A stretch of 58,443 nt of DNA. Source: Planctomycetota bacterium (GTDB taxonomy: Bacteria; Planctomycetota; Planctomycetia; Gemmatales; Gemmataceae). Each line of letters begins with the position of its first letter. The first letter of the stretch is position 1. The notes below the pieces were generated by a model, which was given only the letters and a program-made list of their open reading frames with translations, did not search any database and had not been told where the DNA came from. The stretch spans positions 1-58,443 of the forward strand of contig JAIOPV010000120.1 of assembly GCA_021413735.1 (NCBI GenBank), in the 5' to 3' direction. Shown in pieces: positions 2,644 to 6,354 of the stretch. Both the position numbers and the translations under genes were made by a program.

Positions 2644-5600
2644 TCACGGAGTTGTCGGCACTTGCCAGTGAATATCGACGCGGGCATGTGGTGGGTGGTC
2701 GCCGGTCGCCATGTGCTGATACGCTTCCTTCGCGTTGGGTCCAAACTGCGGCAAACCTGCCAGAGCCAACTGCGGGTATTCCCGGTAGAAGCAGATATCG
2801 TCCGGAAGTAACGCGGGCGTCAGATCAATACCCGGAAGCGCATTCGTTGCGAGTTCCCTGAGTTCGTCGCCGGCCGGTCCGGCCGGTACGCCAAGCACGT
2901 TCATCTCGTAATGCGAACCGCCCTTCGGCATCAATTCCGGCGCAGCACCCTCGAATGCTTCGGCGAGCACCGGCTCCGCACTGCCATCCTCTGTTCGATA
3001 GCGGAAGAAGATCATCGCGGGGTCGGCGTGATCGAGATGCTTGTCGAGGAACTCACGCGACTGACGCAGCAGAATCTCGCGGAAGATCGGTCCCTTCTCG
3101 TTCGGATGCAGGCACACGCTGCCGACGCCCTTGAGCTTCCGGGTGATCTCCTTCTGAAGCCCCTGCTCGAACGTGAGCAACGCTTCGGGAGCAAGCCCGG
3201 CGAGGAACAGGTCGGCTGCTTCGTCCAGATTCGTGCAGCCCGGCGGAAGGATGAGCTTTCCGCCAACGGGGCTGCTCGGCACCGCGCCCGACGCTCCGAG
3301 AGCTGCGTGCAGCTCGGCCAAACTGCCACGACAGAAGTTGATCTCTCGCAGGTATTCCGGAGCGACTGCCAGCAACTTCCGATACAGCGACAGACAGCAA
3401 TCCGCGATGTGGAGCTTGAGCCGTTTGCGAGGATACTCCGCGAACAGATCGCGAATTTCCGCCGTGATTCGCGCCACTCCCCCCCGACCCGAGTTGAGCG
3501 CGCCGATGGTTGAGAACAACCGGCCGTAGATCGCGCGAACATCTTTCTCGAGATTGGCCCGCACAGGCTCCAGCCCATCGACCTGGGTCTTGAGTTTCGC
3601 CGTGATCTGACGAACCGCTTCCTCGGCCGCGGGTAGGCGGAACTGTGGCACTTCGATGAACGTCGCCGCCATCAACCCGATGTGCCCCTCGGCATCACGA
3701 ACCAGTCGTTCATACCTCGCGTGCAGCGGACCATGAACCAATCCGGGAGCCGAGCCATCCTCGGTGTCTGGCTTGCCAACGATCTTGAGGAGTTCGTCGA
3801 AGACGGTACAGGCACCGACGGCGTCGAATGTGCCACCGGATGGCGTCTGCGTGTTGAGCGGGGTGATGATCGCGTCGAACACCTTATCCGGGTCTTCGCG
3901 GAGCGTTTCCTGTACGGCGTGCCGAAGATCCTCGGCCATCGTCGCGAGATCGAATTGCCGATCGGTCCACTGCTGCGAAAGCCAGGTGGCGATCGGTTCG
4001 TGGAGGTGTGCCGCTTCCTTCGCGGTCCAGCGTTGAATCTGCCGCTGCGAAAACCGAGAGGTCGCCGCCATGAGCATTTCGGGACGCGGCCACGACAGCC
4101 TGAACATGCCGAAAGTCTGGCACATCGGCGCAGCTGCGGTGATGGCCTTCGCGTAAGCTTCGCGGCCTTCGTCGGCGACTCGCCCGATGGGGGTCAGCAG
4201 TTCGTTGAACAGCGCACGAGCGGCCAGCCCCGCCGAGGCGGCCTGACTCTTCGGGGTGATCGCCTTCGGCAGAGGCAACACCGCGACCCTGGCGAACGGT
4301 GGTTCGGAATCCACGATCGGCGGTTCCGTTTTGTCGAACATCGTCTGATAAATCGACTTCTTCGCCTGGAAGTGGTTCAACTCGGTGAACGCCGCGTAGG
4401 TGTTGCCGAGCGCCGCGTTGCGGGCCGTGGAACGAGTCGCTGGCGGCACGAAGAAGAACCCGTTAATCTCCGGCTTGAAGTAGCCGACCTGCCGCATCTC
4501 GTGCCGCAGCAGGAAAGCGATATCGAGGAACATACCGCTGCCAGTGCCGCCACCCAAACCGGTGACGATGTACGCACGGGGGCGGTTCGTTCGGAGCCCG
4601 AGCTTCGTGTTCTTGTTCGCCTCGTTGACCGGCGTCTCGATCATGAACGCTTCGATTTCCTGCCGAACTCGCTGGGCAATCACTCGGTAGTGATCGAACA
4701 ACGCGAGCCGACCGAATGCGCGAACCCCCTCGGCCGCGCCCGGATTTCGCGAGAGCTTGTAGAGCGTACCCGAAGGCATCCAACTATCGACGGGAGGCAG
4801 CGAATCGCGTTGGAGGTAGTGCCCTGGGCGATTGAGTCGCGCCAGGACCGCTTCGTGTGGCGCGATGTCCGCGGGGTTATCGCTCGCGCCCGATGGGACC
4901 GCTTCCGGGTCCGTGTCGAGGTACAGATAGCGGATATTCGGGATCTTGTCGGGGTGCGAGAAGCGATCGCAAATCAGCTTCTTGAAGGATTCGACGACTC
5001 GCTTTCCGGTCTGTCCGATGGCGAGAACGAGTGCCGGGAACAGGATTCCTTCACCTGTCTTTTCCGGCGGCGCGATCCCGAGACTTCCCATTCGCCCAGT
5101 CTGGAAAATGATCGGACGCTGAGACGTCATCGTCAGATTGTTCCCGCTGGCAGCACCCGGCGTTACCAACCGGGGACCAAACCCCCCAGGCAGCGGAGTG
5201 CCATTTTTTGCAGGAACAAGCGGCGGCAGTCGATTCGGCTGTGGGGTTTCGTTCTTGCCGGGCGCGGCCGGAGTCGCGCCAAAGCGACCCGCACTCCCCG
5301 GAGCCATACGGGTGATTTGAATCGAGTTCGGAGGGGCAGGAATCGCCGGATCGGCGGGTTGCTCCGTGAGAACGGTCGGTGGCGTTCCGCCTGGGCGAAG
5401 TTGCGAAAGAGCAGGCGCAGGAGGTTCACGCTGCGAGGCAAGCAGTTGAGCCAACGGCGACCCCGACATCTTCAACGCTTGCACAAGATCAGCGCAACGC
5501 GGGTAGCGGTCGTCGGGCCGCTTGCTCAGGCCACGACCGATGATGGCGGCATCGCTTTCCGAGAGGCTGCTGAGATCGGGCGACCCGTTCATGTGCTGCA

Positions 5601-6354
5601 TCAGCAGTTGACGGGTGTTCGCTCCGTTGAACGGGCGGTTGCCGGTGAGCAGTTCCTGGAACACGATGGCGAGGCTGTACTGATCCGAGAAGCGTGAAAT
5701 CCAGCCCTCGAACGTCTCCGGGGCCGCGTAAACCGGCGTGACTCCTCCGGTAACCGTGGCACGAACGCCTTCCAGCACTTTCGCAAGCCCGAAGTCCGCG
5801 ACCTTGATGTGATTGAAAACGAGGAACAGGTTCTGCGGTTTGATGTCGAGGTGCTGGATCTGATAGTGCGTGTTCATCAGATCGAGAGCTTCGGCCGCCT
5901 CCGACATGTAGCCGAGCAGTTCTTCACGCGGAATCCCGACAAGTCCTTGACCGCGGCACTCCCGGAAACGGTCCCACAGGTTGCGGTCGGCCAGCTCCAT
6001 GATGATAATGAGCTGACCTTCGATCGTGTCGTATCGCTCCAGAGAAAGGATGTACGGGTGACGGATCTCGCGGACCCGTTTCATGGCCTTGAGTTCTTGT
6101 TCAGCCGGTCGGCTCTCCTCGTCCATTGCGTCGAGGTCGCCGAAGACGAACTTCGCGGCTTTTTGCAGTCCGCCGGGGGCTTCGACTTTCCATACTTCCC
6201 CGAAACCGCCACGCCCAAGGCGTTCGATGAGCTTGTAGCCTAGTAGTGGGGCGGGAAGTTCTTCCCCGCTGACCATACGGACCGGCATCTGAGGACCGCC
6301 AGATTGGAGGGCGATGGCAGATGGATCGCCAAATGCGCAGACTCGCATCGGCAA
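2644..6354 (-). CDS. Ser/Thr protein kinase fused to tubulin-like GTPase domain
   Basis: A 1236-residue fusion. Residues 40-295 are a eukaryotic-type kinase: glycine loop GRGGFGEV near 48, the Lys of AAKF at 68, HLDIKPQN near 168 (catalytic loop, HLD in place of HRD), DFG at 187-189, and APE near 211. A Pro-rich linker (about 300-430) leads to a tubulin/FtsZ-superfamily-like region: a phosphate-binding-type strand-turn LAIGQTGKRV near 444 and the hallmark GGGTGSG at 601-607, as in the Tubulin_2 group. The remaining 600 residues are mostly helical and unassigned. There is no transmembrane segment, so it is probably cytoplasmic. Start: TTG at 6354, with ATG at 6348 and ATG at 6288 as alternatives; the kinase is complete in all three. 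It is divergent from the ASCH gene with only a 35-bp gap. Function unknown; nucleotide-dependent assembly under kinase control is inference. Confidence 0.9.
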   Translation of the reverse strand: MPMRVCAFGDPSAIALQSGGPQMPVRMVSGEELPAPLLGYKLIERLGRGGFGEVWKVEAPGGLQKAAKFVFGDLDAMDEESRPAEQELKAMKRVREIRHPYILSLERYDTIEGQLIIIMELADRNLWDRFRECRGQGLVGIPREELLGYMSEAAEALDLMNTHYQIQHLDIKPQNLFLVFNHIKVADFGLAKVLEGVRATVTGGVTPVYAAPETFEGWISRFSDQYSLAIVFQELLTGNRPFNGANTRQLLMQHMNGSPDLSSLSESDAAIIGRGLSKRPDDRYPRCADLVQALKMSGSPLAQLLASQREPPAPALSQLRPGGTPPTVLTEQPADPAIPAPPNSIQITRMAPGSAGRFGATPAAPGKNETPQPNRLPPLVPAKNGTPLPGGFGPRLVTPGAASGNNLTMTSQRPIIFQTGRMGSLGIAPPEKTGEGILFPALVLAIGQTGKRVVESFKKLICDRFSHPDKIPNIRYLYLDTDPEAVPSGASDNPADIAPHEAVLARLNRPGHYLQRDSLPPVDSWMPSGTLYKLSRNPGAAEGVRAFGRLALFDHYRVIAQRVRQEIEAFMIETPVNEANKNTKLGLRTNRPRAYIVTGLGGGTGSGMFLDIAFLLRHEMRQVGYFKPEINGFFFVPPATRSTARNAALGNTYAAFTELNHFQAKKSIYQTMFDKTEPPIVDSEPPFARVAVLPLPKAITPKSQAASAGLAARALFNELLTPIGRVADEGREAYAKAITAAAPMCQTFGMFRLSWPRPEMLMAATSRFSQRQIQRWTAKEAAHLHEPIATWLSQQWTDRQFDLATMAEDLRHAVQETLREDPDKVFDAIITPLNTQTPSGGTFDAVGACTVFDELLKIVGKPDTEDGSAPGLVHGPLHARYERLVRDAEGHIGLMAATFIEVPQFRLPAAEEAVRQITAKLKTQVDGLEPVRANLEKDVRAIYGRLFSTIGALNSGRGGVARITAEIRDLFAEYPRKRLKLHIADCCLSLYRKLLAVAPEYLREINFCRGSLAELHAALGASGAVPSSPVGGKLILPPGCTNLDEAADLFLAGLAPEALLTFEQGLQKEITRKLKGVGSVCLHPNEKGPIFREILLRQSREFLDKHLDHADPAMIFFRYRTEDGSAEPVLAEAFEGAAPELMPKGGSHYEMNVLGVPAGPAGDELRELATNALPGIDLTPALLPDDICFYREYPQLALAGLPQFGPNAKEAYQHMATGDHPPHARVDIHWQVPTTP

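Follow-up and report, generated by a model that had tools for sequence, protein, structure and literature searches.

A kinase-fused FtsZl1 protein from a planctomycete appears to have a complete tubulin fold, split by a helical arm

We analyzed a 58,443-nucleotide stretch of DNA from a planctomycete of the family Gemmataceae (contig JAIOPV010000120.1 of GenBank assembly GCA_021413735.1, positions 1 to 58,443), which we will call the window. One gene on its minus strand encodes a protein kinase that is fused to a tubulin-like domain from the FtsZl1 (Tubulin_2) family. The gene is real and conserved, and its architecture has already been described: because kinase-tubulin fusions have been reported in planctomycetes since 2010, the fusion is not a discovery. 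What is new here is a reading of predicted structures, in which the tubulin fold appears to be complete (the GTPase domain, H7, and the C-terminal activation domain), with a helical arm of about 370 residues interrupting the last of these. On balance, we favor the view that this kinase-fused FtsZl1 protein, with its apparently complete but split fold, is a GTP-dependent, self-associating scaffold in the cytoplasm. The parts of the gene are:

2644..6354, minus strand: kinase-FtsZl1 (Tubulin_2) fusion gene, 1236 codons and a stop, with a likely start at the ATG at 6286-6288
5503..6237, minus strand: Ser/Thr protein kinase domain, residues 40-284 (from PF00069 and conservation; K68, E87, HLDIKPQN, DFG, APE)
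5830..5853, minus strand: catalytic loop HLDIKPQN, with Leu replacing the Arg of HRD (from motif reading)
5050..5460, minus strand: Pro/Ala/Gly-rich linker, residues 299-435 (from the family alignment)
4117..5049, minus strand: N-terminal tubulin GTPase domain, residues 436-746, with T1 GQTG (from the Tubulin_2 match and the models)
4534..4554, minus strand: GGGTGSG, the T4 nucleotide loop, residues 601-607 (from the motif and conservation)
4162..4197, minus strand: candidate T7/H8 region, LTPIGRVADEGR (from conservation; the T7 assignment is inferred)
4024..4116, minus strand: predicted S7 and H9 of the C-terminal tubulin domain, residues 747-777 (from both models)
2905..4023, minus strand: helical insert of 373 residues (778-1150) between H9 and S8 (from the models and the family alignment)
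2779..2904, minus strand: predicted S8-H10-S9-S10, where the C-terminal tubulin domain resumes, residues 1151-1192 (from the models)

The tubulin part and its predicted fold

An earlier note on this DNA, made from the sequence alone, took GGGTGSG to be the signature of the tubulin superfamily. Pfam agrees: residues 446-771 match Tubulin_2 (PF13809) with 132.4 bits (3.1e-38; the cutoff is 27 bits). The note had also proposed a search with FtsZ/TubZ profiles; for Tubulin (PF00091), the protein falls short, with 20.2 bits against a cutoff of 33. One fused relative (in genome G364) does exceed that cutoff, with 36.4 bits. When 36 family members are aligned, each residue that is predicted to form the nucleotide site (G447, G450, D480, D482, G602, G605, and G607) is shared by at least 95% of them. 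In the candidate T7/H8 region, LTPIGRVADEGR, G724 and R731 are conserved at that same level and D728 is found in 89% of members.

We built two AlphaFold2 models from the same nine sequences. The first covers residues 425-1236 of the window's protein (predicted local distance difference test, or pLDDT, of 71.4; predicted template modeling score, or pTM, of 0.44), and the second is led by a paralog that is 29% identical (pLDDT 73.8, pTM 0.58). The earlier note had allowed that GGGTGSG might turn out to lie in some other fold; in both models, it forms a loop that precedes a helix, which is the T4 position of the tubulin fold. For the first model, 50 of 529 matches from PDB were listed (Foldseek), and these were entries for FtsZ, tubulin, microtubules, or gamma-tubulin, along with two rows for a mouse oocyte lattice. 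All 50 had a probability of 1.00, with weak E-values. The paralog model aligned to CetZ (3zid_B) with Z = 25.4 and a root-mean-square deviation (rmsd) of 3.3 Å over 292 of 342 residues, and this alignment runs from residue 10 to residue 841 of the model and so spans the insert. The same model aligned to TubZ (2xkb; Z = 21.5, 314 of 404 residues) and to a chain of BtubABC (5o09; Z = 22.2, 331 of 410 residues). Residues 771-820 of the paralog model have a pLDDT of about 80.

The C-terminal domain of FtsZ has the order S7-H9-S8-H10-S9-S10. After the GTPase core, both models have a strand and a helix, then the helical insert, and then strand-helix-strand-strand. Because this repeats the order in FtsZ on the two sides of the insert, we read the C-terminal domain as interrupted between H9 and S8. 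Among 40 aligned members of the family, including a kinase-less copy from the window's genome, the insert is 329-454 residues long, with a median of 379. FtsZl1 proteins are characterized by an extended coiled coil and a largely helical region behind the GTPase domain; in the first model, helices of 28, 50, and 64 residues are predicted. What the earlier note described as about 600 helical residues without a recognized domain is not a single unit in the models: it comprises the remainder of the tubulin core, the insert of about 370 residues, and the elements that finish the tubulin fold. Makarova and Koonin, who described FtsZl1 in 2010, noted a kinase at the N-terminus of four planctomycete members; they did not confidently identify T6-H7, found no FtsZ-like C-terminal domain, and proposed a role in membrane remodeling (PMC2875224). 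If the models are correct, then the C-terminal domain that was missed in that description is probably present but split. In the open-license literature that we searched, we found no structural account of a split C-terminal domain.

The kinase and the linker

The earlier note saw a complete eukaryotic-type kinase in the motifs HLDIKPQN, DFG, and APE, which are at residues 168-175, 187-189, and 211-213. Residues 40-284 match Pkinase (PF00069) with 107.8 bits (7.9e-31; the cutoff is 31.7 bits), and the catalytic lysine (K68), the glutamate (E87), and both aspartates are present. K68, E87, D170, K172, N175, D187, and E213 are each kept in at least 95% of the 36 family members. The replacement of the HRD arginine by leucine, which the note had also pointed out, holds in all 41 fused open reading frames (ORFs) examined (40 genes, one of them counted twice). 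The kinase is PknB-like and looks active, with its catalytic residues intact and the RD arginine absent. Kinases without the RD arginine are often independent of phosphorylation of the activation loop, so control of the fused kinase may come from clustering or from partners.

The best match for the kinase part in PDB is 7naa_A (5.7e-26), and the protein does not reach the equivalog for the PASTA kinase PknB (NCBIfam NF033483; 87 bits against a cutoff of 450). The window's genome contains 152 protein kinase matches, and of the best 30, 22 have HRD, one has HCD, and 7 are outside the pattern that we used. A degenerate DNA pattern for HL-D-(I/V)-K-P, with CTN codons only for leucine, has five sites across the genome: three in fused genes, one in a further kinase on contig C89, and one on contig C230. 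The site on C230 (G000:C230:12052-12068) matches the pattern exactly; no kinase ORF was seen there.

The kinase is better conserved than the rest of the protein: its identity to the fused ORFs in the loci is 49–94%, versus 20–86% from residue 425 on. Between the kinase and the tubulin part, the linker is variable in length, with 50 to 146 residues in the roughly corresponding stretch of 39 fused members. This proline-rich and length-variable sequence is as expected of a flexible tether.

The reading frame and selection

A single ORF on the minus strand, with 1236 residues and a stop codon, fills 2644..6354, starting from a TTG at 6354. (The coordinates in the earlier note fit this ORF, although the note gave no strand.) The true start is probably the ATG at 6286-6288, because residue 23 is methionine in 94% of the 36 aligned members and is encoded by ATG in the window. 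The protein would then have 1214 residues. Compared to two orthologs, the ratio of nonsynonymous to synonymous substitution rates (dN/dS) is 0.04–0.05 for the kinase, 0.07–0.13 for the GTPase part, about 0.12 for the insert, and 0.15 for the linker; these values are rough because dS is 0.8–1.8. By this measure, every part of the fusion protein is under purifying selection.

Distribution and history of the family

Of the four Tubulin_2 genes in the window's genome (9.8 Mb, 96% complete), three are kinase fusions and one lacks the kinase. Across the family, 82 of 95 genomes have Tubulin_2, with or without a kinase, and 68 have two to four copies. The phylum Planctomycetes is said to lack FtsZ, and the earlier note stated this for most of its members, including Gemmata. 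The searches are in line with this: the window's genome has no match to PF00091, and we found no separate FtsZ in the 95 family genomes, where the sole match to PF00091 is within a kinase-Tubulin_2 gene.

The earlier note had suggested a survey of which planctomycetes carry the fusion. We fetched the loci of the family's 30 best-scoring Tubulin_2 matches, and in 27 of them, the kinase and the tubulin part share one reading frame. (The presence of the kinase was read in fetched loci only.) Outside of the family, we found the fusion in three genomes of the same class. In a sample of 294 genomes from across the phylum, including the window's, 14 had a match to Tubulin_2, of which 11 were above the cutoff. 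Three genomes, all from one planctomycete genus, encode proteins of 445–460 residues with GAGGGTGGGSAAE (L024, L025, and L026); these score below the cutoff for Tubulin_2 and are possibly FtsZ- or CetZ-like.

In a tree of 46 tubulin domains, the 39 fused members are separated from the 7 kinase-less members with support of 99/98. A tree of the kinase domains from the same 39 members has its main groups in common with the tubulin tree, although several of its forks are unresolved and L013 and L020 were flagged as long branches. (Both trees omit L018, L019, and L023-L027, which are incomplete, diverge strongly, or had no BLAST match, as well as the partial L010 and L051; loci L001-L004 are duplicates of other rows.) The simplest reading of the trees is one ancient fusion, followed by duplication and co-divergence. 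A mobile or phage origin for the fusion gene is not favored, since it groups with orthologs that have common neighbors. Among viral contigs, 22 stretches fit the search pattern and none were confirmed as relatives of the fusion. Among 342 plasmid records, no match spans 80% of the query, and the 15 matches listed are confined to residues 7-404 (the kinase and linker).

Gene neighborhoods

Upstream of the fusion gene, and divergent from it, are genes for an ASCH protein and a 4-HFC-P synthase. The next gene downstream, which adjoins the fusion gene at 248-2521 on the minus strand, encodes a 758-residue protein with long Pro/Lys/Val-Glu repeats and has no Pfam match at 0.01. We examined 28 loci, of which one (L011) holds a kinase-less gene and three are from one genome (G304). 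Relatives of the 4-HFC-P synthase are present in 15 of these loci and relatives of the ASCH protein in 8.

At least 10 genomes, representing ten genera, have scpA downstream of and on the same strand as a Tubulin_2 match, at 2.1–3.3 kb from start to start. (This count is from comparing the lists of Tubulin_2 and scpA matches by eye, with distances computed for 18 genomes.) Six of these ten loci were fetched (L090, L091, L093, L094, L101, and L105), and in each of them, scpA comes directly after one or two kinase fusions, with a gap of 21–80 bases or a predicted overlap; Pfam was run on four of the six. In the window's genome, scpA is on a different contig from the fusion gene. Among the matches listed, the other genomes had no link between the fusion and scpA; many of these assemblies are fragmented. 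The gene order suggests that two fusion genes followed by scpA is an old arrangement. We consider the link to scpA suggestive and not proof, because an unrelated flank is equally conserved and because scpA is elsewhere in the window's genome.

The kinase-less FtsZl1 gene in the window's genome is in a six-gene cluster (L011:321-15008, on contig C120). Nearby genes encode a large protein with a metal ion-dependent adhesion site (MIDAS) of the von Willebrand factor A (vWA) type, an Hsp70/actin-like protein whose beginning resembles a zinc ribbon, a small protein with likely membrane segments, and a second zinc-ribbon-like protein. Of the six genes, Pfam recognizes just the one for Tubulin_2, and the other labels are from reading motifs; the MIDAS-bearing neighbor has no match to Pfam's vWA.

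A proposed function and its alternatives

We favor a GTP-dependent scaffold or polymer that is tuned by its own kinase because the residues of the GTP site are mostly kept, because the linker resembles a tether, and because the kinase is of the non-RD kind. We propose that binding of GTP at T1 and T4 would drive head-to-tail contacts between tubulin parts, while the helical arm might bind partners or bundle subunits. Clustering would bring the kinases together, with one another, the arm, or client proteins as their possible targets, and phosphorylation by the clustered kinases could then tune assembly.

Several observations weigh against this proposal. The motif GGTGxG is unmatched in 6 of 41 fused ORFs. 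The standard signature of T7 is NxDxx(D/E), which is not seen in the fusion protein, and D728 is the sole candidate for the T7 acid. When the tubulin part and the last 100 residues were searched as profiles against sequences from PDB, there was no link to FtsZ and only weak, unrelated matches. The evidence for a split domain is two models of moderate confidence from a common nine-row alignment, and the two-domain fold is clear in the paralog model but weak in the model of the window's own protein. For that model, alignments within the GTPase domain extend over about 180 residues, and those with low rmsd that run beyond it reach only about 190. Foldseek's E-values are at or below 0.001 for just two matches to the first model and for one match to the second. 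Finally, in the open-license literature that we searched, we found no kinase-fused member for which GTP, polymers, or phosphorylation had been studied.

The tubulin part might instead be a nucleotide switch or a dimerizer that does not polymerize, with kinase signaling as the output and the insert as a docking arm. We consider this possible, though clearly less probable than a scaffold. It would fit with the kinase being the better-conserved half, with a genome whose 152 kinase matches imply an expanded signaling repertoire, and with a 373-residue insert in the C-terminal domain that could block contacts between subunits; Makarova and Koonin likewise allowed that FtsZl1 might not form filaments (PMC2875224). 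However, the predicted GTP-site residues are largely conserved, and the modeled fold looks complete. Also, kinase-less members retain the tubulin part by itself, so the tubulin part would have a function that is independent of a fused kinase.

It is very unlikely, in our view, that the fusion is a chromosome segregation factor that acts with the condensin subunit ScpA. Its proximity to scpA on the same strand in at least 10 genomes, and directly after the fusions in all six loci that were fetched, is what suggests this role. But the 4-HFC-P synthase flank (15 of 28 loci) is as widely conserved and is not known to be connected with segregation, and slow decay of gene order explains the proximity to scpA equally well. 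The separate contigs in the window's genome, and the lack of a link among the matches listed from other genomes (many of them in fragments), also argue against it. We give practically no credence to the idea that the motifs arose by chance or that the frame is misread or decaying: the scores for curated domains are far above their cutoffs, the same fusion is found across the family, and dN/dS is well below 1 throughout.

Gemmataceae divide without FtsZ, and by searches with PF00091 and PF13809, the 95 genomes have no tubulin-superfamily proteins other than the Tubulin_2 family, many copies of which are tied to a kinase. A bolder proposal is that FtsZl1 proteins are full tubulins with an arm in the C-terminal domain and that the kinase-fused branch is a self-phosphorylating polymer which, in these FtsZ-less bacteria, does part of the work of FtsZ or of partition filaments, either in division or, with ScpA, in segregation. 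We consider this quite unlikely. The 2010 description left undecided whether FtsZl1 has the parts for polymerizing (PMC2875224). If the split fold is true, then biochemistry can address the question of filaments directly, and the insert offers a well-delimited target for deletion.

Comparison with known systems

The fusion in planctomycetes is mentioned again in a 2023 study of the superfamily (PMC9871819), and in a 2024 survey of kinases, tubulin-like domains are the commonest accessory domain among those that are confined to cytoplasmic kinases (PMC11032199). The genome paper for Gemmata massiliana places FtsZl1 among the proteins of cell division and the cytoskeleton (PMC4672568).

The window's protein is most similar to the kinase-fused branch of FtsZl1, with which it shares the N-terminal kinase, the GTPase domain with GGGTG(S/T)G, and, as modeled, the long helices and the helical C-terminal part. 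It differs from the 2010 description in that the models suggest the presence of T6-H7 and of a split C-terminal domain. Also, FtsZl1 is usually, but not universally, in an operon with vWA genes, whereas the fusion gene in the window is outside of any vWA operon. The six-gene cluster on contig C120 does resemble the FtsZl1 operons in the 2010 paper (PMC2875224).

Among tubulins of known structure, most of each chain of CetZ (3zid, 4b46), TubZ (2xkb), and BtubABC (5o09) aligns to the paralog model (Z of 21.5–25.4), yet the window's family shows no similarity to them by sequence profile. These proteins are not known to carry a kinase or an insert as long as the arm of about 370 residues. The kinase domain is like those of the PknB-type Ser/Thr kinases of bacteria, but it has HLD instead of HRD, scores far under the cutoff for PASTA kinases, and is fused to Tubulin_2.

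The experimental hint of function that we found is from outside Planctomycetes. Sll0445 from Synechocystis is described with only the Tubulin_2 domain, is clustered with an actin-like protein, and has a role in phototaxis; we liken it to the window's family from its description (PMC9880817). Phototaxis is impaired when sll0445 is interrupted, and Sll0445 itself associates with proteins of pilus assembly; interrupting sll0446, which encodes an actin-like protein with an FtsA domain, also impairs phototaxis (PMC9880817). Like sll0445-sll0446, the cluster on contig C120 pairs a tubulin-fold protein with an actin-fold protein.

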